Positions 7,705 through 24,949 of a stretch of DNA of 64,000 bases are shown here, one piece after another (the stretch's first letter is position 1; every line of letters begins with the position of its first letter). The DNA is from a bacterium. GTDB lineage: Bacteria > Vulcanimicrobiota > Vulcanimicrobiia > Vulcanimicrobiales > Vulcanimicrobiaceae. Under the pieces are notes generated by a model that was not told where the DNA came from, made no database searches, and saw only the letters and a program-made list of their open reading frames with translations. Where the stretch lies: NCBI GenBank assembly GCA_028869385.1, contig JAGWSR010000074.1, forward strand, positions 1 to 64,000, in the 5' to 3' direction. Made by a program: the position numbers and the translations under genes.

Positions 7705-7705
7705 C

Positions 7706-9043
7706 GTGAAACTACTCGAAGCATCCTCGCTGCGCGCGAGCGCGCTAAAGAAGAAGATCCACGACAAGAGCGCCCTCGTCGGCGTCATCGGTATCGGCTA
7801 CGTCGGCCTCCCGCTCGCGGTAGAGAAGGCGAAGGTAGGCTTTCACGTCACCGGCTACGACCGCAATCCGATCCGCGTGGATCAGATTCGTCAGGGCCTG
7901 AACTATATTCGCGATGTCGACGATCGCGAACTCGCCGCGTGCGTCGAAGAAGGACGCTTGGATGCATCGAGCGATTTTTCGAGCCTCGGAAGCTGCGACT
8001 GCATCGTGATCTGCGTGCCTACGCCGCTTACGGCGAACAAAGAGCCGGATATCTCGTTCATCCGCGCCGTCGCCGGCGAGGTCGCTCAGGCGTTGCGGCC
8101 CGGGCAACTGATCTGTCTCGAGAGCACGACCTACCCCGGGACCACCGAGGACGTCTTGCTCGGCGTCCTCGCGCGTTCGGGCCTGGAGGTCGGTGAAGAT
8201 TTTTTTCTCGCGTTCTCGCCGGAGCGCGTGGATCCGGGCAACGCGCGCTACACGACGAAGAACACGAGCAAGGTCGTCGGCGGCGTAACCGCGGCGTGTC
8301 TGGACGTCGCGACGACGTTCTACGCGCAGACCATCGCGCAGGTGATTCCGGTCACGTCGCCACGGGTTGCCGAGATGACGAAGGTCTTCGAAAACACCTT
8401 TCGCGCGGTCAATATCGCGCTCGTCAACGAGATGGCGCTGCTCTGCGACCGGCTTGGCATCAGCGTGTGGGACGTGCTCGACGCGGCGGCGACCAAGCCC
8501 TTCGGCATCATGCGCTTCGATCCGGGTCCGGGTGTCGGTGGGCACTGCATTCCGCTCGATCCGTTCTATCTCGCCTGGAAGGCGCGCGAGTACGACATGA
8601 ACGTGCGCTTCATCGAACTCGCCGGTGAGATCAATTGGAACATGCCGTATTTCGTACGCGAAAAGTTGATCCGAGCGCTCAACGAAAACGGACGAGCGCT
8701 GAAGGGAAGCGGCGTCTTCGTCCTCGGCGTCGCCTACAAGCGCGACATCGAAGACTGGCGCGAGTCGCCCGCGCTCAAGGTGATCGAGCTGCTCGCGCGC
8801 GACGGCGTGCGCGTCGATTACCACGACCCTCACGTGCCGAGCTTCACCGACGAACGGGGGGCGCTCTGGCATTCGATCCCGCTCTCGCGTGAGGTGCTCG
8901 AACGTGCCGATGCGGTGCTGATCTTGACCGATCACCGCGCGATCGACTACGCGCGCGTCTGTGACGCGGCCCGGTTGGTCATCGATACGCGCAACGCCAC
9001 CCGCGACGTACGCGAGGGGCGCGGGAACGTCGTGCTGCTGTGA
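7706..9043 (+). CDS. wbpA: UDP-N-acetylglucosamine 6-dehydrogenase (WbpA-like)
   Basis: The 445-residue nucleotide-sugar dehydrogenase oxidises the C6 hydroxyl to a carboxylate with NAD. The N-terminal NAD motif is GIGYVGLP (29-36). The catalytic cysteine is Cys281 in GVGGHCIPLDPFY. The C-terminal nucleotide-binding domain (VFVLGVAYKRDIEDWRESPA) is intact. The GTG start at 7706 follows the preceding stop by 1 nt; the much longer frame from 7514 lies inside that upstream gene. The following genes complete the WbpA-B-D-E-I pathway, so UDP-GlcNAc is the likely substrate rather than UDP-ManNAc. Confidence 0.85.
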   Translation: MKLLEASSLRASALKKKIHDKSALVGVIGIGYVGLPLAVEKAKVGFHVTGYDRNPIRVDQIRQGLNYIRDVDDRELAACVEEGRLDASSDFSSLGSCDCIVICVPTPLTANKEPDISFIRAVAGEVAQALRPGQLICLESTTYPGTTEDVLLGVLARSGLEVGEDFFLAFSPERVDPGNARYTTKNTSKVVGGVTAACLDVATTFYAQTIAQVIPVTSPRVAEMTKVFENTFRAVNIALVNEMALLCDRLGISVWDVLDAAATKPFGIMRFDPGPGVGGHCIPLDPFYLAWKAREYDMNVRFIELAGEINWNMPYFVREKLIRALNENGRALKGSGVFVLGVAYKRDIEDWRESPALKVIELLARDGVRVDYHDPHVPSFTDERGALWHSIPLSREVLERADAVLILTDHRAIDYARVCDAARLVIDTRNATRDVREGRGNVVLL

Positions 9044-10044
9044 AACGCACGAAGGTTCCGCGCATCGGCGTCATCGGCGCGGGGTACTGGGGAGCGAAGG
9101 TCGTGCGCGTCTGCGCCGAGCTCGGCATGCTCGCGTGCGTGTGCGAGAGCGACGCCGGCGCTCGCGAGCGGGTCGCCACGCAGTACCCGCACGTGCCGAT
9201 CGTGCGCGATCCGGCGGCGATCTTCGCCTCGGATATCGACGGCGTGGCAATCGCGACGCCGCCGGCGACGCACGTCGAGCTGGCGCTCGAGGCGATCGCC
9301 GCGGGAAAGCACGTGTTCGTCGAAAAGCCCCTCGCGCTGCACGTCGAGGACGCCTGGACGGTCACTCATGCCGCACGCGCGGGTGGCCGAATGCTCGTCA
9401 CCGGGCATCTCTTGCGATACCATCCGGCGGTCGTACGCGCGCACGCGTTGATCGCGTCGGGAGCCATCGGCACGTTGCGTCACGTGCGGGCGCAGCGCGT
9501 GGCGTTCGGGCGCCTTCGTGCGAACGAGAACGTCTGGTGGAGCCTCGCACCGCACGCGATCGCGCTCGTGCTCGCGTTTCTCGGCGACGACCCGGCGGCA
9601 GTGAGCGGTACGATGCATGCCTTCGTGCGTCCCGAGATCGCCGACATCGCCTACGCCGATCTGGCGTTCGAGGGAGGCCGCAGCGCGCACGTCGAGGTGA
9701 ATTGGCTCGACCCGAACAAGCGCGCGGTCCTCGATCTTTTCGGCTCGACCGGCGTGCTGCGCTTCAGCGACGCGCCGGGGGAGGCCACGCTCACGATCAC
9801 GCCGTGCGGGAGCGCCCTCGACGCCCACGGCACCCCGGAGCTGTGGCGAGAAGAAGCGCATCCGATCGCGTTCGAGGCGATCGAACCCTTGCGCGCGGAG
9901 TTTGCCGCGTTCGGCCGCGCGCTCGCAACCGGAGAGCCGCCGCCGACCGAGGGCGATGAAGGCGCGCGCGTCGTCGCCGTGCTCGCGGCGCTCGAGCGCG
10001 CGAACGCGAGCCGTCACGTGATCCCCGCGGAGGCCTTGTTATGA
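9040..10044 (+). CDS. wbpB: Gfo/Idh/MocA oxidoreductase (WbpB-like, 3-oxidation of UDP-GlcNAcA)
   Basis: The 334-residue protein has an N-terminal Rossmann fold ([13 protein letters not shown], residues 9-21), the family motif EKPLAL and an alpha/beta C-terminal domain. By family and context it would oxidise UDP-GlcNAc uronic acid at C3, preparing it for transamination. It starts at GTG 9040 with a 4-bp GTGA overlap with the dehydrogenase and ends with a 4-bp overlap into the acetyltransferase gene, so translation is probably coupled. Other sugar oxidoreductases share this fold; the pathway assignment rests on its neighbours. Confidence 0.8.
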
Positions 10045-10640
10045 GCGTTCTCGAGCATCGGCAAACGGCCGCATTCGTGCATCCGTCCTCGTACGTGGAC
10101 GACGGCGCACAGATCGGAGCGGGCACCAAGATCTGGCACTTCTCGCACGTGATGGCGGGCGCTCGCATCGGAAGCGACTGCACCATCGGTCAGAACGTCG
10201 TGATCGCCGCCAACGTTCGTATCGGCGATCGCGTCAAAGTGCAGAACAACGTCTCGATCTACGAAGGCGTCACGCTCGAAGATGAGGTTTTCTGCGGTCC
10301 GAGCATGGTCTTTACGAACGTGGGTACGCCGCGTTCGGGTACGCCGCGCCGCGGAGCCTCGTACTATCAGCCGACGCTGGTTCGCCACGGCGCGACGATC
10401 GGTGCGAACGCGACGATCGTCTGCGGGAACGAGCTCGGTGCCTACTGCTTCGTCGGGGCAGGCTCGGTCGTCACGCGCGACGTGCCGGACTACGCGATGG
10501 TGTACGGCAATCCGGCCCGGATTAAGGGATATGCCTGCGAATGCGGCGTGAAGCTCGCGTTCGCCGAGGAGGACGCTGAGTGTGCCCCATGCGGGCGGCG
10601 CTACCGGCGCGTCGACGGCGTGGTCCGGAGGTTCGCATGA
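10041..10640 (+). CDS. wbpD: UDP-amino-sugar N-acetyltransferase, left-handed beta-helix (WbpD-like)
   Basis: The 199-residue protein is built of hexapeptide repeats ([30 protein letters not shown]) typical of trimeric left-handed beta-helix acyltransferases. The IWHFSHV segment is characteristic of WbpD-type enzymes that acetylate the 3-amino group of UDP-GlcNAc3NA. It carries an extra C-terminal Cys cluster (Cys166, Cys168, Cys181, Cys184; ACECG...CAPCG) that looks like a small zinc ribbon. It overlaps both neighbours by 4 bp. Confidence 0.86.
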
Positions 10641-11743
10641 TCCCGATCTGTGACGTAACCGAGCAGTATCGCTTCTTAAAGCGCCGGATCGATGCCGCCG
10701 TCTGCGACGTCTTCGCGCACGGCCAATACATCAACGGACCGAACGTTCACGCGCTCGAGAACGAAGTGGCAGCCTATCTTGGCGCGCGCTACGCCGTCGG
10801 CGTCAACTCGGGAACCGACGCGCTGCACCTCGCTTTGCGCGCGCTCGATATCGGGCCCGGCGATGAGGTCATCACCTCGCCGTTCACCTTCATCGCGAGC
10901 AGCGAAGCGATCGGTCTCGTCGGCGCAAAACCGGTCTTTGCCGACATCGATCCGCAGCGTTTTACCATCTCGCCCGAGGCGATCGAGAACGCGATCGGCC
11001 CGCGCACGCGAGCGATCCTTCCCGTGCACCTCTACGGATTGCCGGCGCCGATGCCGGAGATCTGCCGCATCGCCGAACGGTATGGGCTCGCGGTCGTGGA
11101 GGATTGCGCGCAGGCGATCGGCGCCTCGATCGACGGGCGCAGAGTCGGAACGTTCGGGGAGTTCGGAGCACTGAGCTTCTTTCCGTCCAAGAACTTGGGC
11201 GCGTACGGAGACGGCGGTATGATCGTGACGTCGCGGCCCGATCTCGCCGATCGCGTACGCAGCCTGCGCGCGCACGGCGGCCGCGTCAAGTATCACCACG
11301 AAGAACTCGGCGTCAACAGTCGCCTCGACGAAGTGCAGGCCGCCATCCTTCGCGTCAAGCTGCCCCACCTCGAATCGTGGCTCGATCTTCGACGCCTGCA
11401 TGCGCGGGGGTACGACGCCGCGCTGCGGGATGCGCTCGTGACGCCGTTCGAACCCGAGCGCTATCGGCACGTCTATCATCAGTACACGGTCCGTCTTCCC
11501 GACCGCGACGCCGTTCAACGCAGGCTCGGCGAGCATGGGATCCAGAGTATGGTGTATTATCCCGTGCCGTTGCATCTGCAGCGCGTGCACGCGGCCCTCG
11601 GCCATCGCGCGGGCGACTTCCCGCATGCGGAGTTCGCCGCACGCGAGGTGCTGTCGTTGCCGATGTATCCGGAGTTGAGCGACGAGCAGCGGCGCCGGGT
11701 GAGCGAACTCTTGCGCGCGTCGTTGGCGCTCGTCGCACTGTGA
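10637..11743 (+). CDS. wbpE: DegT/DnrJ/EryC1 aminotransferase (WbpE-like)
   Basis: A 368-residue PLP-dependent sugar aminotransferase. Lys185 in [14 protein letters not shown] is the Schiff-base lysine, and the GTDALHLAL and EDCAQAIGA blocks are conserved family features. In this pathway it would transfer an amino group to C3 of the 3-keto-UDP-GlcNAcA made by the WbpB-like enzyme. I use the ATG at 10637, which gives a 4-bp ATGA overlap, rather than an upstream start at 10580 inside the acetyltransferase gene. Confidence 0.87.
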
Positions 11744-11745
11744 CG

Positions 11746-12837
11746 ATGCGCGTCGTCAGTATCGTCGGCGCGCGACCGCAGTTCGTCAAGGCGGCCTTGC
11801 TCTCGCGGGCCTTTGCCGCCCGTGGGATCGTGGAATCGCTCGTGCACACGGGCCAACATCACGACAACGCCATGAGCGCCTCGTTCTTCGCCGAATTCGG
11901 GCTGCCGCAGCCGTATGCGAATCTCGGCGTCGGCTCATCGTCGCCCCTGCACCAATTGGGTGAGATGCTCTTGCGACTCGAACCGGTGCTGCACGAACTC
12001 TCGCCGAGCTTCGTGCTCGTGTACGGCGATACCACGAGCACGCTCGCCGGGGCACTCGCCGCCGCAAAGCTCGAGCTTCCGCTCGCGCACGTCGAGGCGG
12101 GGCTGCGCTGCTTCGATCTGCGGATGCCCGAGGAGCAAAACCGTCTCGTCGCCGATCGCGTCGCCGATCTCTTGCTCGCCCCGACCGCGCGCGCCGCGGC
12201 TCAACTACGCAGCGAGGGCATCGAGCAGACGGTTGAGGTCGTCGGCGATCTCATGGTCGACCTCGCGATCGCGACCCTACGCGAACTGCCGTTGCGTCCG
12301 GCCGTGCTCGAGCGCTTCGGCCTGCGCCCTCGCGGCTACGTCCTCGCGACGATTCATCGAGCGGCAAACACGGCGGACGCGGCTCGCTTCGCGCTCCTGC
12401 TCGATGGTCTCCGGCGCATCGGTCTGCCGATCGTTTTTCCGGTGCATCCGCGCACGCGGCCGCTCGCGGAGATGCTCGGCGTCGGACGCGGTGACCGCAT
12501 CGTTACGTGCGAACCGCTCGGCTACCGCGACTGCCTCGCGCTGCAGCGCGACGCCAGGGCGGTCGTCACCGACTCGGGCGGCATGCAAAAAGAGGCGCTC
12601 GCCGTCGGCACGCCGTGCGTGACGCTGCGCGATCGCACCGAGTGGCCCGAGACGCTGGAGCACGACTGGAACGTGCTCGTCGACGGCGACCCGGGACGGA
12701 TCGCGAGAGCAGCGCTGCGGGCGCGCCCGTTGCACGCGATCTCGCCGTTCGGCACGGGTGCGAGCGCGCATCGGATCGTGGAAGCGCTCCTGCGATGTGA
12801 CGCGTCCGAGCGAGTCCTGCAGTCGTGCGGCTCCTGA
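11746..12837 (+). CDS. wbpI: Non-hydrolysing UDP-GlcNAc-type 2-epimerase (WbpI/WecB family)
   Basis: The 363-residue GT-B-fold epimerase has the opening VVSIVGARPQFVKAA, the HTGQHHD motif, GDTTSTLAGA, HVEAGLR and DSGGMQKEA, all typical of the WecB/WbpI family. After the WbpA-B-D-E enzymes its likely role is C2 epimerisation of UDP-GlcNAc(3NAc)A to UDP-ManNAc(3NAc)A. Use of UDP-GlcNAc to give UDP-ManNAc is the alternative. The start is 2 nt after the aminotransferase stop. Upstream in-frame starts lie within that gene. Confidence 0.85.
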   Translation: MRVVSIVGARPQFVKAALLSRAFAARGIVESLVHTGQHHDNAMSASFFAEFGLPQPYANLGVGSSSPLHQLGEMLLRLEPVLHELSPSFVLVYGDTTSTLAGALAAAKLELPLAHVEAGLRCFDLRMPEEQNRLVADRVADLLLAPTARAAAQLRSEGIEQTVEVVGDLMVDLAIATLRELPLRPAVLERFGLRPRGYVLATIHRAANTADAARFALLLDGLRRIGLPIVFPVHPRTRPLAEMLGVGRGDRIVTCEPLGYRDCLALQRDARAVVTDSGGMQKEALAVGTPCVTLRDRTEWPETLEHDWNVLVDGDPGRIARAALRARPLHAISPFGTGASAHRIVEALLRCDASERVLQSCGS

Positions 12838-14048
12838 TCCTCACACAGTACTTCGCGCCGGAGATCGGGGCTCCACAGGCGCGTCTCGCGGCGATCGCAC
12901 GCGAGTTGCGCGTTCGAGGGCATGCGGTCGAAGTGGTCACGGCGATGCCGCACCATCTCGCCGAGCGCACCTTTCCGGGGTATCGCGGGCGCCTCTACGT
13001 GCGCGAGTCGATGGACGGTATCACGGTTCACCGGTCGTGGGTCTTCGCCGCTACCGGAACGGGCGTGCGCCGCATGGCGAGCTATCTTTCGTTCACGCTC
13101 TCGTGCCTCATCGGGTTGATGCGCGCGAAGCGCCCGGACGCGATTTTCGTCGAGTCGCCGCCGCTCTTTCTCAGCCTTCCCGGATGGATCTTCGCCCGTC
13201 TCTTCGGTGCGCGGCTAATCTTCAACGTCGCCGATCTTTGGCCGGATTCGGTGCGCGAACTGGGCGTGCTGCGTGGCGGCCCGTTGTTGCGCGCGGCGGA
13301 GTTGCTGGAGCGTTGGACGTACGCGCGTGCCGCGGTCGTCAATGCCGCGACCGACGGCATCGCGAGCGTTCTGCGTGAGCGCAAGGGCGTGCATCCGCGC
13401 AAGATCGTGCCGCTTCCGAACGGTATCGACGTCGCGCGCTTCACGCCGCGCCCGCCCGACGAAGTGCTCGTGCGCGATCTCGGGCTCGAGGGACGTCCCG
13501 TCGTGCTCTACGCGGGTACGCACGGCATCGCGCAGGGTCTGCTCGGCGTCCTCGAAGCGGCCGAAGAGCTCGGTGACGACGCATTGCTGCTCTGTATCGG
13601 CGCGGGCCCGGTGAAGGCGGCGATGCAAGCGTTTGCAACGCAGCGTGGGCTTCACAACGTGCGATTCCTCGCTCCCGTTCCGCTCGACGAGATGCCGCGC
13701 TATCTCTCGCTCGCGCGAGCGTCGATCGTCCCGCTCGTGCGTACGCCGTTGATGGCGAGCGCGCGGCCATCGAAGATCTTTCCTTCACTCGCTTGCGGCG
13801 TTCCCGTCATCTACAGTGGTGAAGGCGAGAGCGCCGCATTGATCGAGCGCGCGCAGGCAGGCCTTGTGGTACCGCCGGAGGATCCGCCCGCGCTCGCGCA
13901 AGCGATCCGTCGCATCGTGCGTGACGACGCGCTGCGCGCACGACTTGCGATGAACGCGCGCAACCTCGCCGTGGAGCGGTTTGCGTGGAGCGCGATCGTC
14001 GGAACGTGGCTCGCCGCGCTCGCAAACGGCAGCCCGGGGCTCGTTTGA
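12825..14048 (+). CDS. Glycosyltransferase family 4 (WbuB-like)
   Basis: The 407-residue GT-B glycosyltransferase has the N-terminal LILTQYFAPEIGAPQ motif seen in WbuB/WcaI-like enzymes, a nucleotide-sugar domain with VLYAGTHGIAQG, and the acidic region near SLACGVPVIYSGEGESA. It probably adds one sugar to the polyprenyl-linked repeat unit at the inner face of the membrane. The GTG start at 12825 overlaps the epimerase gene by 13 bp. It is the last gene of the first coupled block; 140 bp follow before the next start. Confidence 0.8.
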   Translation: MRLLILTQYFAPEIGAPQARLAAIARELRVRGHAVEVVTAMPHHLAERTFPGYRGRLYVRESMDGITVHRSWVFAATGTGVRRMASYLSFTLSCLIGLMRAKRPDAIFVESPPLFLSLPGWIFARLFGARLIFNVADLWPDSVRELGVLRGGPLLRAAELLERWTYARAAVVNAATDGIASVLRERKGVHPRKIVPLPNGIDVARFTPRPPDEVLVRDLGLEGRPVVLYAGTHGIAQGLLGVLEAAEELGDDALLLCIGAGPVKAAMQAFATQRGLHNVRFLAPVPLDEMPRYLSLARASIVPLVRTPLMASARPSKIFPSLACGVPVIYSGEGESAALIERAQAGLVVPPEDPPALAQAIRRIVRDDALRARLAMNARNLAVERFAWSAIVGTWLAALANGSPGLV

Positions 14049-14188: not shown

Positions 14189-15634
14189 TTGAGCGTTCGA
14201 CTCTTCGCCCACCTCAGCGCACTCGCGCTACTCGCCTGTTCGCTTGCCGCCTGCGGGGGCGGCGGCAGCAACGCATCGGCCGTACTCCCGGTCTCCTCGC
14301 TGCCGGATCCCGGCGCAGCATCGCCCCCGCCGCTTATTCCGGCATCGACCGCGATTGTCCCAACCCACATTCCCGTGTGGGCCTTCGATGAGTACAACTC
14401 GATGGGATCGGTCGCGTCGAGCTCTGCGGTGCAGAAGTACGTCACCTACGCGGGCGGCGGACTGAACAACACGAAAGCGCTGAGCGATTGCAACACCTCG
14501 CCGAAGAGTTGCTACGCGGTGTTCTACGTGGATCCAAACCTCATCTATACGACCTGTCCGGGTACGACGCAGCCGCCATTCGTGACCGCCGCGAGCGAGT
14601 CGTGGTACGTCCATGAGTCCGGGTATAGCGACTTCAACCATCGCCTGCGAAACTCGTACCCGCGCACCTGCGGCGGCGTCGCCACGACGACACCCGTGTA
14701 CCTTGCAAACGACGCGAACTCAGCCGTCCAATCGTTCATGCGCAACTATCTGCAGACGTACGGTGACGCATGGGACTACTATTGGATGGACGACACCAAA
14801 GGGCGCGTGCTCACGCAAGGGTACGGGCCGAGCGGCGGCATGTGCCTCGACGCCTCAAACCACTACTGCTGGAACACGCAAGAGTACGCCACCGATAGTA
14901 CCGTCGTCAGCGCGCACGGCTCGTACGCGACGGCCATGGTCCATAAGAACGGCTCCGGCATGAAGTTCTTTTTCAACGGCGTCGGCGTGCAGACCAGCGC
15001 GATCAGCAACCTCAATATCTTCGCGTCGAGCCCGAACTATTCCGGAGCGATCTGCGAGAATTGCGTCGTGGCGAATAACGTGATCCGCACCTCGCTCTTC
15101 GGTCAGGTGTTGACCTCGATGGCCCAAACGAACGCGATTCCGAATGCCAAGTTCATTCTGCTCGGGCGCGGCAGCGCGAGCGCGGGCAGCGCGGCACAAA
15201 TCGCGCAGCGTCTCGTCTCCACCGCGATTGCGTGGATCGGCTTCGCTGATGGACGAACGATCGTCTTCCCCGACTTCGAAGACAACACGCGCAACCTCGC
15301 CGCGTGGCCCGAGGATATGCTCTATCCGACGGCCCCCAAGGAGAGCATGCGGAGCTCGGCGAGCGACGTTGCGGTCGCGGCGGGCGTGTGGCGCCGCGAG
15401 TTTGGAGCCTGCTACCAAAACGGGGCGCCGGTCGGCCAGTGCGCGGCCCTCGTCAATAGCACCGGATCCGCGGTCACCGTGAGCTCCGCGTGGCTCACGC
15501 AGCCGTACGGACACGTGGTGACGATCTCGGGTGGCGATATCCTAAGCGGCGGTACGGTGAAGCTCACGACCACGAGCTTTGTCGCGAATCGCACGACGAT
15601 CCCGGCGGGCTCGGCACTCCTGCTCGTACGGTAG
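14189..15634 (+). CDS. Secreted lipoprotein of unknown function, paralogue of 17821-19134
   Basis: The 481-residue protein begins with a lipoprotein signal (LLACSLAAC, lipidation at Cys22). After a low-complexity linker comes a large domain with many aromatic residues and conserved blocks: IPVWAFDEY, KALSDC, YVDPNLIY, YYWMDDTKG, GAICENC, AIAWIGFADGRTIVFPDFED and NLAAWPEDMLYPT. All of these recur in the minus-strand paralogue. The Asp pair in MDDTKG and the FPDFED block could be catalytic acids of a TIM-barrel glycoside hydrolase, but I do not recognise a named family. The TTG start at 14189 has GGGAAGG upstream. Its place among polysaccharide genes suggests a role in processing or anchoring the polymer outside the inner membrane. 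Confidence 0.75.
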   Translation: MSVRLFAHLSALALLACSLAACGGGGSNASAVLPVSSLPDPGAASPPPLIPASTAIVPTHIPVWAFDEYNSMGSVASSSAVQKYVTYAGGGLNNTKALSDCNTSPKSCYAVFYVDPNLIYTTCPGTTQPPFVTAASESWYVHESGYSDFNHRLRNSYPRTCGGVATTTPVYLANDANSAVQSFMRNYLQTYGDAWDYYWMDDTKGRVLTQGYGPSGGMCLDASNHYCWNTQEYATDSTVVSAHGSYATAMVHKNGSGMKFFFNGVGVQTSAISNLNIFASSPNYSGAICENCVVANNVIRTSLFGQVLTSMAQTNAIPNAKFILLGRGSASAGSAAQIAQRLVSTAIAWIGFADGRTIVFPDFEDNTRNLAAWPEDMLYPTAPKESMRSSASDVAVAAGVWRREFGACYQNGAPVGQCAALVNSTGSAVTVSSAWLTQPYGHVVTISGGDILSGGTVKLTTTSFVANRTTIPAGSALLLVR

Positions 15635-15647
15635 AGTATAGGCGCAA

Positions 15648-15685
15648 GGGGAGTGTTTGCGCGCGACGCGCGCGAATGCTCCCCC
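15648..15685 (+). promoter_or_regulatory. Long imperfect hairpin touching a start codon
   Basis: GGGGAG at 15648-15653 pairs with CTCCCC near 15679-15684, and GCGCGCG with CGCGCG around a small loop near 15666. The middle is held by A-T and G-T pairs. The structure ends at the ATG of the next gene (15686). There is no T-tract. It could hide the ribosome-binding region of the glycosyltransferase mRNA or stall the upstream transcript. Confidence 0.35.
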
Positions 15686-16951
15686 ATGCGGCGCGTTCTC
15701 TTGGTCGCGTACTACACCCCTCCGCGCAAAGGCGTGGCGACCGCGCGCACGAGCGCGCTCGCGCATTACCTGCCGGCATACGGCTGGCAACCGACCATCC
15801 TCACCGCGCCGCTCGAATACGCCGATGCGCGGACGCTCCAGACCCCGTATCTCGATCTCGCACGCTCGCTCAAACGCGCGGTCGGCATCGGCGAACGCAG
15901 TACGCACGCGCTCTTGCATACCGCCCCGGCCGAACGCGGTGCGCGCCGCACGCTGCGCCAGCGCGCGATCGCCTTCGGTTTTGGGCTCACGAGCTATCCC
16001 GACGCGCAGGTCGGTTGGCTCGCCGGAACTCGCGCACTGCGCGCCGTGCTCGCCGATGCATCGTTCGATGCGGTCATCTCCAGTTCACCGCCCTACACCG
16101 CCACACTCATGCTCGCGCTCGCGCGAACGCGCATCCCGTGGATCGCCGATTTTCGCGATCTGTGGGCCGAGAACGACCTCCGCGCGACACCGCTCGTGCG
16201 CGCGTTCGACGATCCACTCGAGCGTTGGGCCTTGCGGCGCGCTCGCGCGCTCACGACGGTTTCCGAGCCGCTCGCCGAACGTCTGCGCAAGCGCTATCCC
16301 GCTCGCCGCGTCGAATCGATTCCGAACGCCTTCGACCCGCGGGAGTGGGAGGGAATCCCATTCGATGGCGAGCGCGCGTGCACGTTGCTCTACGCTGGGC
16401 AGCTCTACCTTGGTCGACGCGATCCGCGCCCGCTCTTACGCGTGGTGCGCGCGTTGCTCGATGACGGCAGCGTGGAGAGCGAAGAACTGCGCGTGGAACT
16501 CTACGCTCCCGCCGAACCATGGCTCCACGAGCTGATCGCATCGTTCGCGCTTGAAGGTGTCGTGCGCGTGCACGGCATGGTTGCGCGCGACGACGTGCTG
16601 CGCGCCGAGCGCCGGGCGGATCGTCTCGTGGTGCTGCTCTGGGACGGCGCGAATACCGAGGGCATCCTCACCGGCAAGCTCTTCGAATACCTCGGAGCGC
16701 GGCGACGCATCGTCGTCATCGGTGGGCCGGAGTCGAGCGCCGTCGATGACGTGCTCGCCGCGACCGGTGCGGGGACTCGCGTTACGACCGACGCGGCCCT
16801 GCGCGTCGAAGTTCTCGCGGCGATCGCGGAACATCGCCGTGGAGAGACGCGGCGAATGGTCGAATCGGCGTCCGAATCATACGCTGCGCCGATGCTCGCT
16901 CATCGGTTCTCGCGGCTCTTAGACGAAGTTGCCGCGCCGTGCGAGTCGTGA
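15686..16951 (+). CDS. Glycosyltransferase, GT4-like
   Basis: The 421-residue protein starts with VLLVAYYTPPRKGVATAR, an opening typical of GT4-type GT-B enzymes. It has a central donor-binding domain (CTLLYAGQLYLGRRDPRP) and a C-terminal acidic patch (WDGANTEGILTGKLFEYLGA). It presumably builds the repeat unit of the surface polysaccharide. I use the ATG at 15686; the frame extends to 15653 but the conserved core starts here. Its last 33 bp overlap the 3' end of the convergent formyltransferase-like gene. Confidence 0.75.
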   Translation: MRRVLLVAYYTPPRKGVATARTSALAHYLPAYGWQPTILTAPLEYADARTLQTPYLDLARSLKRAVGIGERSTHALLHTAPAERGARRTLRQRAIAFGFGLTSYPDAQVGWLAGTRALRAVLADASFDAVISSSPPYTATLMLALARTRIPWIADFRDLWAENDLRATPLVRAFDDPLERWALRRARALTTVSEPLAERLRKRYPARRVESIPNAFDPREWEGIPFDGERACTLLYAGQLYLGRRDPRPLLRVVRALLDDGSVESEELRVELYAPAEPWLHELIASFALEGVVRVHGMVARDDVLRAERRADRLVVLLWDGANTEGILTGKLFEYLGARRRIVVIGGPESSAVDDVLAATGAGTRVTTDAALRVEVLAAIAEHRRGETRRMVESASESYAAPMLAHRFSRLLDEVAAPCES

Positions 16952-17743
16952 CACGCGCCAACGCTGCGCGAGATAATCGGTGAGCCCGGGATACGAATAG
17001 TACCCCTCGCGTGCATCGGGGCGTTCGATCGCCCGTGCCGAGCCGTCTTCCAACGCGCGCAGAAAGCGCCCGACGGCCGGCAAGCTCGCGAGAATCGCTC
17101 GGTGCTCGATGAGCACGTGGTTGTCGTGCCGAACGTCAACGTCGGAGATCCGACCTTGCACGTACACCGCCCCCGCGTCGAGGTCGTCGTTGACGTGAAT
17201 CAGCGAGTAGCCGAAGTTCTCCACATCGCCGTTGTAGAGCGTCCAGAACGGCGAGTAGAGGCCGCGGTATTCGGGCGTGATACCGACATGCCACATGAAG
17301 ATTCCCGTGCGGGCGCAGCGCCGTAAGCGTTGCCCGAAATACTCGTTGAGGCAGTGCGCGAAGATGACGTCCGGTGCGAGGGCCTCGAGACGTGCGAGCA
17401 CGGCGGCATCGTTGACGCTGGCCGTGACGATGCCGCAGGGCACCTCGGCGAGCGCGAGCGAGCGCTCGGCCTCGTCGACGAGCGCGTACGAAGCGCGCGT
17501 ATTGCGCGAGTTTCGGTCGGTCGCGTGGTGGAAGAGAAAGTACGCGATCTCATCGAGCGTCTTGAGCGCACCGCGCTTGCGCAGGCGGCGTTTGATGAAG
17601 CGCCATCGCCCATTCCACGATTGATGCCAGCGCGTCGAAGGGTCGATCCAGACGCACTCGACCAGATCGCACTCGCGCGCGAGCCATCCGGCAATGACCG
17701 CATTGAGACGGTTGCGGTGTCCGATAAAGACCGCACGAAGCAT
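16919..17743 (-). CDS. Formyltransferase-family protein (sugar N-formyltransferase candidate)
   Basis: The 274-residue protein has a formyltransferase core: VIFAHCLNEYF, then MWHVGITPEYRGLYSPFWTLYNGD and NDDLDAGAVYVQG. These match the HPSLLPxYRG and DxG blocks of methionyl-tRNA and sugar N-formyltransferases. The His of the usual Asn-x-His-...-Asp triad and the Asp in LDAGA are present. The Asn position is Met (FMWH), so activity may be altered. In a locus with a 4,6-dehydratase and two aminotransferases, N-formylation of an amino-deoxy sugar is plausible but inferred. It is the last gene of the minus-strand block, 77 bp after the preceding gene. No ribosome-binding site is obvious at the chosen ATG. 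Confidence 0.65.
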   Translation of the reverse strand: MLRAVFIGHRNRLNAVIAGWLARECDLVECVWIDPSTRWHQSWNGRWRFIKRRLRKRGALKTLDEIAYFLFHHATDRNSRNTRASYALVDEAERSLALAEVPCGIVTASVNDAAVLARLEALAPDVIFAHCLNEYFGQRLRRCARTGIFMWHVGITPEYRGLYSPFWTLYNGDVENFGYSLIHVNDDLDAGAVYVQGRISDVDVRHDNHVLIEHRAILASLPAVGRFLRALEDGSARAIERPDAREGYYSYPGLTDYLAQRWRVSRLARRGNFV

Positions 17744-17820
17744 ATGTTTAAGGCTACGCCTCCGATGCCGCGAGGCCTAGGGATGCTGGTCCCACCAGAG
17801 CCGGGGTCCTTCGCTCTACG

Positions 17821-19134
17821 TCAGCGTGCGATGAGCAGCGCGCCCGACGGCGGAACGAGCCATGGCGACGCGCCGAACGCCGCGCGAACGATCGTCCCGC
17901 CGCTGCCGATGTCGCCGCCGAGCAGCCGCACGCGCGCCGCATAGCGCTCGCGCAACCATCCGCGCTCGACGGTGACCGCGCGCGGATTCGCGTTCAGCAG
18001 CGCCGCGCACGGACCGATCGCGATCCCCGCCTCGTAGCAGCGTGCAAATTCACGGCGCCAAACGCCGGGGGCAACCTCCAGCTCGGGCCACGATTCGAGC
18101 GGAGATGTCGGATAGAGCGCATCTTCCGGCCAAACGGCGAGGTTGCGCGTGTCGCTCTCGAGATTCGGCCAGACGATCGTGCGGCCGGGTTCGAAACCGA
18201 GCCAGGCGACGGCGGTCGTCACGAGGCGTTGCACGATCTGCGCGTCGCTGCCGGGCGGCGAGCGCCCGGTGTTCAGTTCGACGAATGCGGCCGAGGGTAT
18301 GGCGTGTACCCTGGCCATCGCCTCGAGTACGCGCGCATACATATCCGGACGCAAGCGCCCGTCGTTGACGATACAGTTCTCGCAGATCGCGCCGACAAAC
18401 GGCGCGTTCCCGCGCAGGAGCGGAAGGTCGCGCGAGCCCGTGCCAAAGGTGAGCCCGTTGTAAAAAAAGGCCTTTGGGCTTCCGTCGGGCGTCGCGAGTA
18501 CGCGCGCGAAGCGCTGCTGCGCGCGAACGAGCGCGGCATCGTCGGAGAACTCGTTCGTGCGCGGGCAGAGCGACGAGAGCAAGGCGTCGCGGCAAAAGCC
18601 GCCGCCCGGTCCGTACATCTGCGCGATCACGGTGTCCTTGGTGTCGTCGAGTTCGACGGCCCCCCAGCCGCGCGCTTCGCGTGCGAGGTCGTCGGCGAAG
18701 AAGTCCGCGACGTCGTGGTTCGCGACATCGGCGACGTACACGCGTGCCGCGACGCTTGAACCGCGACAACCGCGCTCGTACGTCCCGCGTACGCGGTGCG
18801 CCGCGTCATCGAAACCCGGCTCGTGTACGTACCACGCCTCGGGTGCACGCGCGAGAAAGGCGGTGTAGGCTGGAAACGGGCATGCATCGCTCGCGTAGAT
18901 CAGATGCGGGTCGAAGTAGAAGACCGCGGTGCACGCACCGCCGGCGCAGTCGCTGAGCGCCTTATCGTTCCCGCGACCACCCTCGGCGTAGTTCAGCGTA
19001 TCGCGCACGAAGCGCGCGCTCGCCGTCGCACCCTCGCCGCGATACTCATCGAAGGCCCAGGTTGGAATATGCCGCGGGATTGCGGCGGTCGAGGCGCAGA
19101 CGAGCGCGACGAGCGCCATAGCCCGAAGCGTCAT
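17821..19134 (-). CDS. Secreted protein of unknown function, paralogue of 14189-15634
   Basis: The 437-residue protein shares the full domain of the lipoprotein at 14189: IPTWAFDEY, KALSDC, YFDPHLIY, LDDTKD, GAICENC, AVAWLGFEPGRTIVWPNLES and NLAVWPEDALYPT. It has a simple signal peptide (MTLRAMALVALVCASTAA) and no lipobox Cys, so it is probably released or periplasmic rather than lipid-anchored. The start at 19134 forms an ATGA overlap with the glycosyltransferase upstream. Conserved Asp pairs and Cys suggest an enzyme with disulphides. A glycoside-hydrolase-like role in polymer trimming is inference only. Confidence 0.75.
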   Translation of the reverse strand: MTLRAMALVALVCASTAAIPRHIPTWAFDEYRGEGATASARFVRDTLNYAEGGRGNDKALSDCAGGACTAVFYFDPHLIYASDACPFPAYTAFLARAPEAWYVHEPGFDDAAHRVRGTYERGCRGSSVAARVYVADVANHDVADFFADDLAREARGWGAVELDDTKDTVIAQMYGPGGGFCRDALLSSLCPRTNEFSDDAALVRAQQRFARVLATPDGSPKAFFYNGLTFGTGSRDLPLLRGNAPFVGAICENCIVNDGRLRPDMYARVLEAMARVHAIPSAAFVELNTGRSPPGSDAQIVQRLVTTAVAWLGFEPGRTIVWPNLESDTRNLAVWPEDALYPTSPLESWPELEVAPGVWRREFARCYEAGIAIGPCAALLNANPRAVTVERGWLRERYAARVRLLGGDIGSGGTIVRAAFGASPWLVPPSGALLIAR

Positions 19135-20252
19135 GCGGCGAGTCGGCCGGCTACGAGCGCCTGATAGAGCGCGCGATGGCGCTGCGCGCACGTGGTCATC
19201 GCGTACTCGCTCCCAACCGCCGTCCGCGCGGCGCGCACGCGTTGCGCCGTCGCGGTCGCATCGGCGAAGAGGTCCCGCGTGGCGCGAGCGAGCGCTTCGG
19301 GAGTCCAATCCGCCGCGAGGAGGCCACGCGAACCGTCCGCCAGGAGATCGCGCGCACCGAGCCACGGCGTCGACACGATCGGCACCTCGGCGCGCATCGC
19401 CTCGAGGAGCGCGAGGGGCATACCCTCCGTCAGGGACGGCATGACGAGCGCATCCGCTGCCGGAAGCAGTGCCGCGACGTCGCGCCGGTAGCCGAGAAAA
19501 CGCACCGCATCGTCGACGGCGAGCGCGTGCGCGCGCGCTTCGAGCATCGCACGATCGACGCCGTCGCCGACGAAGAAGAGCCGCATCGTCGCGTCTCCTT
19601 CATCGCGCAGGCGCGCGAAGGCTTCGAGCGCGAGCACTTGGTGCTTGTGGCGATGGAGGTTACCGAGCACGACGAGCGCCTTGGTCGCGTCGTCGAGATC
19701 GAGCAGCGCGCGTCCCTCGCGCCGCGCGGCCTCGCCGCGCGCGAGCGCATCCTCGACGCCGTTCGGAATGATCGCGAGCTTGCGCGCGTCGAAATGTTCG
19801 TACGCCGCGAGATACTCGCCCTGTTCGCGCGTAAACGTCACCACCGCCGCCGTCACCGCGTTGAGGAGACGGTTCGGTAGCGCGGTCCCGCGCAGACGCG
19901 CCGCGGGGTCGCACGGGAGATGTTCGGTTCGCACGATCCTGCGCACCCCGGCCACGTATGCTGCGAGTCGTCCCCAATACGTACCGTGGTGCATGTGCGT
20001 GTGAACGACGTCGGGACGCCACGCGCGAATCGCGGCGACCATGCGCCCGAGAAATGCACCGTCGTAGCGACCGCTGCGAGCGATCTGGAGGATGTCGGCG
20101 CTCGATGCGCCGAGGTACGCCGGGACCTCGGTCGGATAGACCGACATGACCGCGCAGTGCATACGCGCATCGCACAGCCGTGGCACGAGCGCGCCCACGA
20201 AGTGCTCGGCGCCACCACCGTTCAGCGCGGTCACGACGTGCAGGATTCTCAT
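19131..20252 (-). CDS. Glycosyltransferase family 4
   Basis: The 373-residue GT-B enzyme opens with ILHVVTALNGGGAEHFV, the common GT4 acceptor-domain motif. It has ALVVLGNLHRHKHQVLALEA and ends with MPSLTEGMPLALLEAMRAEVPIV, the EX7E-type donor-binding region. It probably adds a sugar to the lipid-linked repeat unit. It overlaps the upstream glycosyltransferase and the downstream secreted-protein gene by 4 bp each, so it is translationally coupled on both sides. The frame reads further upstream, but those starts fall inside the preceding gene. Confidence 0.85.
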   Translation of the reverse strand: MRILHVVTALNGGGAEHFVGALVPRLCDARMHCAVMSVYPTEVPAYLGASSADILQIARSGRYDGAFLGRMVAAIRAWRPDVVHTHMHHGTYWGRLAAYVAGVRRIVRTEHLPCDPAARLRGTALPNRLLNAVTAAVVTFTREQGEYLAAYEHFDARKLAIIPNGVEDALARGEAARREGRALLDLDDATKALVVLGNLHRHKHQVLALEAFARLRDEGDATMRLFFVGDGVDRAMLEARAHALAVDDAVRFLGYRRDVAALLPAADALVMPSLTEGMPLALLEAMRAEVPIVSTPWLGARDLLADGSRGLLAADWTPEALARATRDLFADATATAQRVRAARTAVGSEYAMTTCAQRHRALYQALVAGRLAA

Positions 20253-21460
20253 GCGGCCTCGATCGCGCGGGCTACGCGGCGGGCCGTGGCGGTAACGTCG
20301 AAGGCGCGTTCGACGGTGAGGCGCGCGGCGTCGCGCAGGCGCGCGCGCTCCCGCTCGTCGTGCGCGAGTCGCGCGATGGCGCGAGCGATGGCGGGCGCGT
20401 CGCCGACCGGAGCGAGCAGTCCGTTGCATCCGTCGACAATCGCCTCGTCGATTGCTCCCGAGCGCGTGGCGACGATCGGCACGCCCGCCGCCATGCACTC
20501 GATGGCGAAGATCGGAATCCCCTCGCACTGCGCGGGCCCCTCGTCGATACTCGTGAGGACCGCGAGATCGAAGGCACCGCCGCGCAGACGTTCGAGCAAG
20601 TCATCATGCGGGATGACGCCGACGAAGCGAACGCGATCGCACAAGTCGAGCCGTGCGACGAGGTCGTAAAGCCGAGAGCGTTCGCTGCCGTCGCCGGCGA
20701 GCGTGCATTCGAAGGCGATTCCGCGGCCCGCGCAATCGGCGAGCGCACGCAGCAGCGTTTCGTGGCCCTTCACGCGCTCGAGGTTCGCCGCGCAGATGAT
20801 TCGCAGCACGCCGTTGCGGCGTATGGGCGCGAGGCGCGTCGGCAACACGACGCCGAGATGCAGCGTGAAGATCCGGGGCTCGGGCGACGTTTCGAGCGCG
20901 CGCTCCGCGAGGGCGCGGCCGCGCTGCGAGATCAACCGAACGAAGCTCGCCGTCGAGACGAAGCCCGCGTACGGATGCGCTCCGGAGCCGATGTTGAAGT
21001 TCACCAAGTCGTAGCGATGGCCGCTCGCACTCCAGGGGATTCCGTTGAGTCGTGAGATCACGAAGGCGATCGTCGCCGGCGTCGAGAGCCAATAGGCATG
21101 CACGTGGCTCACGCGCGCGAGGCGAGCGCTCCGCGCGAGGGAGAGTGCCTTGGGGAAGATCAGCGCATTCTTGATGCGGGCATGGAGCGCGCGCGGCGCC
21201 CGCACGACGGCGAGGAACGTGCGCCACACGCGCGCGGGCGAACGCAACCACTCCGCGACCGCATCCCGCATCACGTCCGCCGCGACGAGCGCGCGCGCCT
21301 CACAGCGTCGCACGCCGGGAATCGCGCGCATCGGCGCGCGCGGATCGGCGAGCGCCGGATAGACGGCGACATCGAAGCTCCTCGCAAGTTCGGCGATCTC
21401 GGCATGGAGGAACGCTTCTTTGCTGCCGTAGGGATAGCGCGACGTGATCGCCGCGATCAT
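20249..21460 (-). CDS. Glycosyltransferase family 4
   Basis: The 403-residue protein has the N-terminal RYPYGSKEAFLHAEI segment found in GT4 enzymes of exopolysaccharide clusters. VSHVHAYWLS follows, then a donor domain with CAANLERVKGHETLLRAL and SIDEGPAQCEGIPIFAIECMAAGVPIV. The ATG at 21460 gives a 4-bp overlap with the flippase gene, and the stop overlaps the next glycosyltransferase start. The apparent 729-codon frame extending to 22438 is antisense or out-of-frame noise within the flippase gene. Confidence 0.83.
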   Translation of the reverse strand: MIAAITSRYPYGSKEAFLHAEIAELARSFDVAVYPALADPRAPMRAIPGVRRCEARALVAADVMRDAVAEWLRSPARVWRTFLAVVRAPRALHARIKNALIFPKALSLARSARLARVSHVHAYWLSTPATIAFVISRLNGIPWSASGHRYDLVNFNIGSGAHPYAGFVSTASFVRLISQRGRALAERALETSPEPRIFTLHLGVVLPTRLAPIRRNGVLRIICAANLERVKGHETLLRALADCAGRGIAFECTLAGDGSERSRLYDLVARLDLCDRVRFVGVIPHDDLLERLRGGAFDLAVLTSIDEGPAQCEGIPIFAIECMAAGVPIVATRSGAIDEAIVDGCNGLLAPVGDAPAIARAIARLAHDERERARLRDAARLTVERAFDVTATARRVARAIEAA

Positions 21461-22758
21461 ACGGCACCCCGCAACTGGCGATACAGCGCGCTTCCGGCGG
21501 CCGCATACGCGCTCACGTCGCTCCAGCGCGGTACCAGCACGCGCGCGACCGGAACGGCGGCATCGCGGGCGAAGACGGCGATGCACGCTCCCGCCGCGAC
21601 CAGATACCCGATGGTGGAGCCGAGCGCGGCCCCAACGAGACCGAGATGACGGATGGCAAGCGTACTGACGCCGACGCAGATGATTGCGGATACGGCGGCG
21701 AGCATCATCGGGATCTGCGGCTTGCCGAGACGGATCGTAAAGTAGCTCGAGATCGGACTGCCGAGCGAGAGCGCGAAGACGCCGACGAGGAGCACCCGAA
21801 ATGCGGGGATCATGGGCATGAAGGCAACCCCGTAGAGCACGCGAACCGCGAACGGCGCCACGAGCGCGAGCGTGGCGCACGCGACCGCGGCGACGAGGAT
21901 ATTGTTGCGCACGCAGCGCGCGGTAAGTTCGGCGGCCGCGCGCGAGGATTCGAGCGAGCCGATCTGCGGCGAGCTCACGACGGCGCTCACCTGCGTCGCG
22001 GCCAAGAGCATCTCGGCGGCGGTCACCGCGAGGGTGTACATACCGAGCATCGTCGGCCCGCCGAAGGCGGCCACGACGTACACGTCGGCTCGGTAATTGA
22101 GCAGTGAGATCAGCGAGACGCTTCCGACGCGGAGCGCATACCAAGCGAAACGACGCGTCTCGAGCGTGCCCGCGTCGAGACGACGAGCGTCGACGACGAG
22201 CCACAGGCCCGCGGCGAGCGCGGCGAGATCGCTCGAGACCACCCAGGCGAGAATCGCCGAACGCGGCAGCGCGCCGAAGATCGTGAGCGCCGCGAGCATC
22301 AGCCCGAGCAGCAACGTGGTGTTGAGCGCGGCGTAGCTCGTATTCATGCGTACGCGGTCGGTGCCGATCTGATAGCCGTAGAAGATCGCGAGCATGGCGG
22401 GGCCGGGAAGCGCGAGCGCCGCCGGGATCGCCGCCCACGGTGCGCCGAGACTCCGCGCGATGAGATACGTCGCCGGGATGCCGGCGAGCACGAAGAGCAG
22501 CGCGCTGATAAAGGCGGGAACCAGAACCGCGCGGCCGACGCGGTAGCGCAGCATGAAGTGCGCGGTCGCATTGTTGAGGCCCGCGTAACCCGCGCTTACG
22601 AGCGACAGGGTAACGAGCGGAATCGCGTAGATCCCGCGTCCGGCCGGTCCGAGCATCCGCGCGGTGAGGATGCCCAACACCGCGGCGATCCCCATGGTGA
22701 TCAGACGAAAGGCGAAGGTGTAGAGTCCATCGGCGAAGAGGCGATCTCGCAGCGACAT
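21457..22758 (-). CDS. Wzx-like oligosaccharide flippase
   Basis: The 433-residue protein is almost entirely hydrophobic, with about 12-14 predicted membrane segments and short loops. The N-terminal FAFRLITMGIAAVLGILTARMLGPAGRGIYA is typical of the MOP/MATE-type polysaccharide exporters (Wzx, RfbX). It would flip the polyprenyl-diphosphate-linked repeat unit across the inner membrane for the polymerase encoded at 28903. I use the ATG at 22758, 10 nt after the Wzc-like stop; an alternative ATG at 22803 would overlap that gene by 35 bp. Confidence 0.87.
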   Translation of the reverse strand: MSLRDRLFADGLYTFAFRLITMGIAAVLGILTARMLGPAGRGIYAIPLVTLSLVSAGYAGLNNATAHFMLRYRVGRAVLVPAFISALLFVLAGIPATYLIARSLGAPWAAIPAALALPGPAMLAIFYGYQIGTDRVRMNTSYAALNTTLLLGLMLAALTIFGALPRSAILAWVVSSDLAALAAGLWLVVDARRLDAGTLETRRFAWYALRVGSVSLISLLNYRADVYVVAAFGGPTMLGMYTLAVTAAEMLLAATQVSAVVSSPQIGSLESSRAAAELTARCVRNNILVAAVACATLALVAPFAVRVLYGVAFMPMIPAFRVLLVGVFALSLGSPISSYFTIRLGKPQIPMMLAAVSAIICVGVSTLAIRHLGLVGAALGSTIGYLVAAGACIAVFARDAAVPVARVLVPRWSDVSAYAAAGSALYRQLRGAV

Positions 22759-22768
22759 GCGGTGTGCT

Positions 22769-24949
22769 TCAGCCGGGCGAGGTGACGATCGGGGCGTCGT
22801 CACCGTGCGGCGGCAACGCGTCGCCGCGCAGAAACGCCATATAGTCCGAGGCGTAGTCGGCGGCCTTTGGTTCGACGCGATTGGTGACGAAGCCGAGAAC
22901 GTTGCGAACGCCGAGTCGTCCCAGCCGCCCCATCATCTCGCGCGCGGCGCGCAGATCGGTCGTACCTTGCGAGAGGACGAGCACGGTCGCACTCACCCGC
23001 CGCGCCACCGCCGCCGAGTCGACGTTTCCGACCAGCGCGGCGCCGTCGAGAACCACGGTCGCATATCGACTCTCCAAGTCGTGCAGCACCGCCTCGAATC
23101 GTGCGGACTCGAGCAGTTTGAGCGGGTTCGGCGTCGGCGTTCCGCTCGTCAGCACGTCGAGCGAGCCGCGCACGCCGCGCACGATGACACCATCCAGGTC
23201 GCTTCGGCCAACCAGCACATCGGTGAGGCCGCGTTCGTTTTCGAGACGCAACTTCGCGTGCAGCGACGGCCGACGGAGATCGCAGTCAACGAGCGCGACC
23301 GAGCCCTCCAGTTCCGCGAGCGCGAGCGCGACGTTGAGCGCGATCATCGACTTTCCGTCACCTTGGCTCGGGCTGAGCACCACGAGCGAACGCAGGGGTA
23401 CGGCGCTCGCATATTTGATGTTGGTGACGAGCGTGAGAAAAGATTCGAGCGCGAGCGACTTGACCCACGGCAGCGCGGGTTCGCCCTCGCGGAGCTCGAT
23501 CGCGGGAATCGTCCCCAACTGCGGAAGGCGAAGCTCTTCCTCGGTCTCGCGCGCGTCGCGAATCGTCGTGTCGAGGTACTCGAGCAAGAGCGCCCCGCTG
23601 ACGCCGAGGAGCGCACCGAGCACGATCGCAACGAGCAGATTGATCGTCAAACTCGGGCGGACGCTCGCTTCGCTCGGACTCGCCGGTTGCGTCACGGTCA
23701 CGTCGGAGAGCGCCGTCTCCGAAGCGACCTGAGCGTTGACCAGTTTCTGTTGCAGCGCGTTGAAGACGGCTTGGGACGACGTTGCGTCGCGTTGCAGGTC
23801 GGCCAGCGACGCGGTGAGACCGGGAAGCGCCGCGAGTTGCTTGTTCATATCCCCGCGCTGGCGGATCAATTCGGCGATCTGCGCGGTGTCGGCCGCGATC
23901 GTGTCACGGTCGGTCGCGGCCTGCGCTTCGAGCTGCTGATAGAGTGGATTCGGAATCGCGCTCCGATTCGCAATCACGGATTGCGGTTGGCCGGCGATCG
24001 TCTGTTCGAGGCGAGCCTTCTGCGCTTTGAGCGCGATCACCGTCGGATGGCGGTCGGTGTACTGCTGCTCGGCGGCATCGAGTTGCACCATCACCTGGGC
24101 GAGTTGCGATTTGAGCTGCGTCACGACCGGGTTCTCGGCGATCGTCGCGCTGCCGGTGACCGTCGCACCGACGGAGCCGAGTTGCGCGTTCGCCGCCGCG
24201 AGTTGCGCCTGCATCTGCGTGCGGTCGGCCTGAACGCTGCCGATCTTCGTATCGAGTGCGGCTAAGGCGCCCACGAGTGACTGCGTCTGCGCGTCGATGT
24301 TGACGAGTTGGTGCGCCGCTTCGAAGGACGCGAGACGATTCTGCGCGTCGCTCATGCGGGCTTGGGCCGCTGGAATCTGCGCCTTGAGCGAGGTGAGCGC
24401 GGCGTTTGCCTGGCTCGCGACCAACTCGCGCTGACGTTCCACCACGGCGGAGCCGAAGGCGTTGGCAATATTTGCGGAGGTCGTCGGATTCGACCACGTC
24501 GCCGAAATCGTGAGAATATTGGTATTCGTGATCGGAGCGACCGTTACGTGCCCGAGGAGTTGTGTCGGGCTGGTGCTGAGTTTGAGATCGTCGATCACCC
24601 GTTGGGCGACAGGTGTCTCTTTGAACAGCTCGGCGTAGGTCTCCGACGATTGCGTGGCGTTCGCAATGAGGAGCGCGTTGAGGACCGGCAGGTCGGCATT
24701 CGCGTTCGCCGCGCTCGGGTCGCTCGCGTTGCCGGCGATCACTTTGATGCTCGTCTGATACTGCTTGGGCCAAAGCAGCGTTCCGACCGCCACCAGCGCG
24801 ACGAAGGTGAAGAAGATGCGCAGCGCCGTCCAGCGGCGCCGGATGAGGCTCCGCCACAGCGATGCGTGATAGTCGGTCTCTCCGATGAGGCTCGAAAGCT
24901 CCGATGCTCCCGAAAGCGCCGGCTGCCCGGCTGCTGGAATTGCGTGCAT
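22769..24949 (-). CDS. wzc: Wzc-like polysaccharide co-polymerase with BY-kinase domain
   Basis: The protein of about 726 residues has a Wzz-type N-terminus (first membrane segment near 42-60), a long periplasmic region with Ala/Gln-rich coiled coil (about 165-415) and a second membrane segment (432-455). The cytoplasmic P-loop domain has Walker A SPSQGDGKS near 525-533 and Walker A' ALVDCDLRRPSLH near 551-563. The Walker B segment reads VVLDGAAL rather than the usual DTPP. The C-terminal tail has only two Tyr (PKAADYASDYMAF) instead of a Tyr-rich cluster. It controls chain length and export with Wza. The start at 24949 is preceded by GGAGAGAG; an ATG at 24994 is also in frame. Confidence 0.88.
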   Translation of the reverse strand: MHAIPAAGQPALSGASELSSLIGETDYHASLWRSLIRRRWTALRIFFTFVALVAVGTLLWPKQYQTSIKVIAGNASDPSAANANADLPVLNALLIANATQSSETYAELFKETPVAQRVIDDLKLSTSPTQLLGHVTVAPITNTNILTISATWSNPTTSANIANAFGSAVVERQRELVASQANAALTSLKAQIPAAQARMSDAQNRLASFEAAHQLVNIDAQTQSLVGALAALDTKIGSVQADRTQMQAQLAAANAQLGSVGATVTGSATIAENPVVTQLKSQLAQVMVQLDAAEQQYTDRHPTVIALKAQKARLEQTIAGQPQSVIANRSAIPNPLYQQLEAQAATDRDTIAADTAQIAELIRQRGDMNKQLAALPGLTASLADLQRDATSSQAVFNALQQKLVNAQVASETALSDVTVTQPASPSEASVRPSLTINLLVAIVLGALLGVSGALLLEYLDTTIRDARETEEELRLPQLGTIPAIELREGEPALPWVKSLALESFLTLVTNIKYASAVPLRSLVVLSPSQGDGKSMIALNVALALAELEGSVALVDCDLRRPSLHAKLRLENERGLTDVLVGRSDLDGVIVRGVRGSLDVLTSGTPTPNPLKLLESARFEAVLHDLESRYATVVLDGAALVGNVDSAAVARRVSATVLVLSQGTTDLRAAREMMGRLGRLGVRNVLGFVTNRVEPKAADYASDYMAFLRGDALPPHGDDAPIVTSPG

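Follow-up and report, generated by a model that had tools for sequence, protein, structure and literature searches.

What do two copies of one presumably exported protein do in a single polysaccharide locus, if one of them appears to be held by a lipid anchor and the other does not? The question is raised by a stretch of 64,000 nucleotides from a bacterium of the Vulcanimicrobiaceae (assembly GCA_028869385.1, contig JAGWSR010000074.1, positions 1 to 64,000 of the forward strand; hereafter, the window), which encodes the predicted lipoprotein P0001 (481 amino acids; 14189..15634, plus strand) and its predicted soluble paralogue P0002 (437 amino acids; 17821..19134, minus strand). A first inspection of this DNA, made without database searches (the sequence-only reading), had proposed the two proteins as candidate hydrolases that trim or release the polymer. 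As a whole, this interpretation is partly supported by our analysis. We consider it probable that P0001 and P0002 are retaining endo-glycosidases that process the polymer of their own locus, like PelA or PgaB, and it is their placement in the operon that makes such a role the best explanation.

Paralogy, export signals and predicted fold

P0001 and P0002 align from end to end with 196 identities over 436 positions (45%; 374 bits, E = 6e-131). The shared domain is therefore the whole mature protein, and the similarity is far beyond chance. Both open reading frames, their strands, the common domain and all of the shared motifs quoted in the sequence-only reading were recovered in our analysis. 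P0001 starts with a TTG codon, and its lipoprotein signal peptide (14189..14254, plus strand) reads LACSLAAC-GGGG, that is, it ends in the lipobox SLAAC, which is followed by four glycines. P0002 begins with MTLRAMALVALVCASTAA, which reads as a plain signal peptide without a lipobox. Its reading frame could open earlier, at a GTG at 19365. An ATG at 19134, however, shares 4 bp (ATGA) with the end of the upstream family 4 glycosyltransferase (GT4) gene, including its stop codon, and is followed by the signal peptide, and for these reasons we take this ATG as the likely start; the overlap likely leads to translational coupling of the two genes. No third copy was found in the source genome, and P0001 and P0002 are its sole two.

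Neither protein had a match in Pfam or NCBIfam, and P0001 had no meaningful match among the sequences of the PDB; a hit to the SixA phosphatase (E = 0.61) was regarded as fortuitous. Structure prediction was more informative. AlphaFold2 models, built from the window proteins and fetched relatives, were confident for both (predicted local distance difference test score of 93, predicted template modelling score of 0.92) and consist of a TIM barrel followed by a C-terminal beta domain, as in GH168, in which the barrel is followed by a C-terminal antiparallel beta motif. Indeed, the best Foldseek match was a GH168 enzyme (5e-10), and the top 14 VIA-align neighbours of both models were all GH168 or GH168-like proteins (Z of 21.6 to 24.4, root mean square deviation of 3.5 to 4.0, about 310 residues aligned), including the endo-fucanases FunA/Fun168A, Fun168D/E, PbFucA and 9nhf. 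After a gap followed GH191 (Z of 16 to 17), GH36 (16), and GH66 and PelA (15); the GH66 matches included cyclising glucanotransferases. The TIM-barrel hydrolase that had been suspected from conserved acidic blocks is thus borne out by the models, and the nearest solved neighbours are endo-acting glycosidases. The hydrolase domain of PelA (GH166) and the endo-galactosaminidases of GH191, GH114 and GH135 have in common with the models a TIM barrel with an Asp/Glu pair (Z of 15 to 17), but the match is confined to the barrel, the fold similarity is much weaker and the sugars are others. Cwp19 (GHL10) of Clostridioides difficile is likewise a secreted, TIM-barrel, glycosidase-like protein in a surface-polymer locus (PMC5765458; Z of 14.2), but it belongs to another GHL family, acts on peptidoglycan and has cell-wall-binding domains. 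A search of BFVD gave a single weak match of low TM score, which was set aside.

A distant relation to GH168 and GHL15, and a candidate acid pair

At the sequence level, the relation to GH168 becomes visible with profiles. A profile of 31 members (A2) matches PDB entry 9f9v, a GH168-like protein of a planctomycete, with an E value of 3.4e-4, and the alignment sets the family Asp against FMDA, NGL against YNGF and the family Glu against GAQIE, hence D, N and E against D, N and E. Other GH168 chains were reached by A2 with E values of 0.2 to 0.6, and no GH168 sequence was matched in the PDB by P0001, the single window protein searched, nor by a further profile (A4); sequence similarity does not place the proteins in GH168. 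Other differences from the GH168 enzymes, which have a context of fucoidan degradation, are the placement of P0001 and P0002 among genes for polysaccharide synthesis, the roughly ten conserved cysteines and the lipoprotein forms. The second link leads to Pfam GHL15 (PF14885, hypothetical glycosyl hydrolase family 15). It was matched by 5 of 36 relatives, one of which (L059:5337-6719) scores 29.8 bits and exceeds the gathering cut-off of 27, but P0001 and P0002 do not match it and most members fall below its cut-off. In a profile-profile comparison, A2 aligned with a profile of three clear GHL15 proteins of the phylum (A5) over 298 columns (probability of 90.5%, P = 1.4e-6), as expected for homology within the wider GHL15 superfamily. 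A narrow subfamily profile of 14 sequences (A3) did not reach GHL15, and the sequence link therefore passes through distant relatives. Since the GH168 structure entry 9nhf bears the name GHL15 protein, the GHL15 superfamily includes GH168. On the basis of the 9f9v match, the GHL15 matches and the A2/A5 comparison, but also of the failure of A3, profiles and predicted fold identify the P0001/P0002 family as a divergent new branch of the GHL15/GH168 superfamily that is a formal member of neither family. The earlier statement that no known family is recognisable holds for direct Pfam and NCBIfam matches, but not for such distant kinship.

If the proteins are enzymes, which residues would do the work? 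Among 65 different members, whose identity to P0002 has a median of about 21%, one position is Asp throughout (D201 in P0001, codon 14789..14791, plus strand; D163 in P0002, codon 18646..18648, minus strand) and a second is Glu in 60 members and Asp in the other 5 (E290, codon 15056..15058, plus strand; E252, codon 18379..18381, minus strand). In the models, D163/D201 directly follows beta strand 4 and E252/E290 lies at or just before the end of beta strand 6, and by the alignment to 9f9v both coincide with the beta 4 Asp and beta 6 Glu of GH168. Also invariant or nearly so are, in P0002 numbering, H22, Y73, N226, R303, P336-E337, R361, C366, C376 and N381, and members of the own subfamily have about 10 cysteines in common, which fits the expectation for exported proteins. 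In FunA of GH168, a change of D206 or E264 abolishes activity, and the enzyme transglycosylates, which implies a retaining mechanism (PMC7401878); in GH191, GH114 and PelA, too, Asp serves as the nucleophile and Glu as the acid/base (PMC12054363). Because the equivalent pair is kept at about 20% identity, catalysis in the P0001/P0002 family would most likely proceed by double displacement of the GH168 type, with D201/D163 as the predicted nucleophile and E290/E252 as the predicted general acid/base. Of the two acidic blocks that the sequence-only reading had expected in the pocket, MDDTKG indeed holds, where beta 4 ends, a carboxylate that never varies; FPDFED was rejected as a catalytic block because it is not conserved (P0002 has WPNLESD), and the second candidate is the Glu of GAICENC.

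The locus and the distribution of the family

The window contains a complete Wzx/Wzy pathway, with Wzx, Wzy, Wzz/kinase, Wza, an initiating transferase and several glycosyltransferases, and P0001 and P0002 sit in it in convergent transcription blocks, in line with the earlier description of a polysaccharide locus with two transcription units. On the minus strand, a Wzz/tyrosine-kinase-like chain-length regulator (22769..24994), a Wzx-type flippase (21457..22803; PF01943, 11 predicted transmembrane segments), two GT4 glycosyltransferases (20249..21460, in one operon with P0002, and, overlapping P0002, 19131..20252), P0002 and a formyltransferase-like protein (16919..17743; PF00551, weakly ArnA-like, possibly a sugar N-formyltransferase) follow each other. 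On the plus strand, P0001 is flanked by two GT4 genes, one upstream (12825..14048) and one 19 bp downstream (15653..16951), and lies downstream of a nucleotide-sugar cassette (7514..12837) that encodes, in this order, a uridine diphosphate-sugar dehydrogenase, a GFO/IDH oxidoreductase, a hexapeptide acetyltransferase, a DegT aminotransferase and a WecB epimerase. In content and order, these five genes correspond to the wbpA-B-D-E-I route to diacetamido-mannuronic acid, and on their basis the polymer is predicted to contain a diacetamido-uronic acid. Further along the plus strand are the initiating sugar-phosphate transferase (27893..28906; Bac_transf), a Wzy-like polymerase (28582..30279 as listed, with a true start probably further in; PF04932, Wzy_C, about 10 transmembrane segments) and a Wza-type export protein (33814..34683; Poly_export/SLBB). 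Beside the latter lies another lipoprotein without a Pfam family (32943-33743, plus strand), which starts with AACGGGGGGG, and a GNAT/FemAB-type acyltransferase frame (25962-27896, plus strand) is found inside the locus. Five tRNA genes (2-2265) precede both ClpX and the polysaccharide locus. A scan for promoters and terminators was uninformative.

A profile search detected the family in 56 of 149 genomes of the phylum (51 in an earlier round), with about 135 copies, 1 to 9 per genome, often in tandem. Among relatives from GTDB species, 14 of 16 loci belong to Candidatus Eremiobacterota/Eremiobacteria, and no phylum is given in the remaining two records. Some members (L063:7454-10597, L037:10873-13263 and L044:15101-17317) have 700 to 1050 amino acids, with long extra stretches that lie at least partly between lipobox and barrel. 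No members were found in plasmids and phages (tblastn) or in viral contigs, searches of limited reach, and a mobile-element origin is unsupported given these null results. A first motif scan of genome contigs, derived from two sequences, found nothing since its patterns were too narrow; as a basis for searching, a 31-row alignment was too loose and a 14-row alignment worked. Because of the limited reach of these searches, members may also exist in other phyla.

Is the placement in a polysaccharide locus peculiar to the window? We examined the surroundings of 84 copies in 28 genomes and counted a copy as near a marker if a Bac_transf or Poly_export gene lay within 25 kb. This was the case for 53 of the 84, compared to 3.6 expected from genome coverage (about 15-fold enrichment), and 25 of the 28 genomes had at least one such copy. 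When the flanks were read, about eight more copies proved to have a glycosyltransferase or an aminotransferase as a neighbour (G111 C25, G026 C178 and C46, G033 C32 and G017 C3). The expected co-location with Wzx/Wzy-type genes in relatives therefore holds for most copies; a universal link was ruled out by reading the remaining ones.

The combination of an anchored and a free copy, which had been claimed for the window and agrees with our reading of the signal peptides, recurs in other clusters. As far as the contigs reach, the order GT4d - GT4c - soluble-position copy - X - GT4b - lipoprotein copy - ... - GT4a is found in the window and in G088, G113 and G111, and these four genomes span three genus codes. 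Their soluble-position copies form a moderately supported group (80/83 with all four, 90/90 with three of them, 98/98 with two). That of G111 is without its N-terminus, and a quick tree of 48 rows places that of G088 apart from the other three, so that it may not be their strict orthologue. By a simple pattern reading, nine distinct clusters across distant clades have one non-lipoprotein and at least one lipoprotein, six have lipoproteins only and none has two non-lipoproteins. We do not claim a strict rule of one soluble copy per cluster, since the absence of clusters with two also arises in 9.5% of shuffles. Lipid anchoring is the commonest form within the family, and the anchor state switches at least eight times on the 48-row tree; the split into anchored and soluble copies therefore arose repeatedly. 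As far as signal peptides can tell, this supports separate roles of anchored and free copies.

A probable role in polymer processing and its rivals

The predicted fold of a sugar-cutting enzyme, the placement in a polymer locus and the recurrence across the phylum Eremiobacterota are the reasons why P0001 and P0002 probably cut or trim the polymer under synthesis. What we infer about their catalysis, their substrate, where they act and what they do for the cell is as follows. The two proteins would act outside the cytoplasm as retaining endo-glycosidases of a new, Eremiobacterota-centred GHL15/GH168 branch on the polysaccharide assembled by the surrounding Wzx/Wzy locus, P0001 at a membrane face and P0002 in the periplasm or outside, and may jointly trim, size, clear or release it. 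Elsewhere, such tasks are performed by the glycosidases PelA (PMC9894940) and PgaB (PMC5933820) and the lyase AlgL (PMC8829089), which are encoded in exopolysaccharide loci and affect the size of the polymer, its released form or its clearance from the periplasm. Like PelA, which is encoded within the biosynthesis operon (PMC12054363, PMC9894940), and like exopolysaccharide-processing glycosidases of the PelA/PgaB type in general, P0001 and P0002 are encoded in the synthesis locus; PelA, however, serves a synthase-dependent system, whereas this locus is of the Wzx/Wzy type.

Several observations weigh against this assignment. Besides the failure of the narrow profile to reach GHL15, the identity to the structural neighbours is just 10 to 15%, and the export signals were assigned by visual inspection and with a simple pattern. 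The family gene set is patchy in distribution: of the two genomes of the same genus, one is without the family and the other has a single distant copy. Furthermore, about 23 of the 84 copies (e.g., in L034, L038 and L043) have no recognised polysaccharide-synthesis gene nearby, although the flanks were queried with the window proteins and glycan genes unrelated to these could escape notice. L038 has a family triplet beside phosphoesterase genes, L043 a family pair near a SpoIIE/MASE1 signalling gene, and in L034 a GHL15-like protein is encoded at a distance of two genes from a copy of the family (6910-8649, plus strand, and 10375-11859, minus strand); some members may therefore act otherwise.

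Could the pair be catabolic or competitive enzymes that digest the polysaccharide of neighbours or of the environment, and be placed here merely because such loci collect glycan genes? The GH168 enzymes, their nearest characterised fold relatives, are catabolic fucanases (PMC7401878), and about a quarter of the copies lie outside recognisable polysaccharide loci. Nevertheless, we regard this as unlikely: sugar importers, TonB receptors, sulfatases or utilisation-locus kinases were not recognised beside P0001 and P0002, whose neighbours are synthesis genes, and the 4-bp overlap with the glycosyltransferase as well as the enrichment near synthesis markers argue against it. It is also conceivable, but quite improbable in our view, that the proteins are transglycosylases that link polymer chains with one another or with an acceptor, for instance to attach them at the outer membrane, in preference to net hydrolysis. 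The transglycosylation by FunA, the GH66 glucanotransferases among the structural matches and the prevalence of lipid anchoring would fit such a function; no sequence feature was found that separates transferase from hydrolase, and the soluble partner is harder to account for. Catalytically dead scaffolds that bind polysaccharide would agree with the strong divergence, the long inserts of some members and the replacement of the beta 6 Glu by Asp in five of the 65, but they are very improbable given that the beta 4 Asp is invariant and an acid at beta 6 is always kept down to about 20% identity, which is unexpected for proteins that only bind.

Glycosidases in polysaccharide loci are already known, and so is this fold. 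In the literature searched, we found no description of a phylum-wide, multi-copy GHL15/GH168 branch in Wzx/Wzy loci with anchored and soluble sets. In synthase-dependent systems, PelA, PgaB and AlgL control how large the polymer is and how it is released and cleared, and the family provides candidates for that job in Wzx/Wzy systems, throughout a phylum almost without cultured members. The characterised members of its superfamily degrade the fucans of seaweed and sea cucumber; the family would be a biosynthetic branch, with two defined candidate catalytic residues, and may be a source of new biofilm-cutting enzymes. The repeated split into lipid-anchored and soluble copies raises the question of why one locus needs both. 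As a tentative and rather doubtful answer, this may be a new family of glycosidases that is mostly restricted to Eremiobacterota and in whose loci lipid-anchored copies and one soluble copy evolved repeatedly, such that the placement of the enzyme sets the balance of bound and released polymer. If true, Wzx/Wzy polymers would in general pass through a processing step by such a two-compartment set, much as PelA and PgaB provide one in synthase systems.

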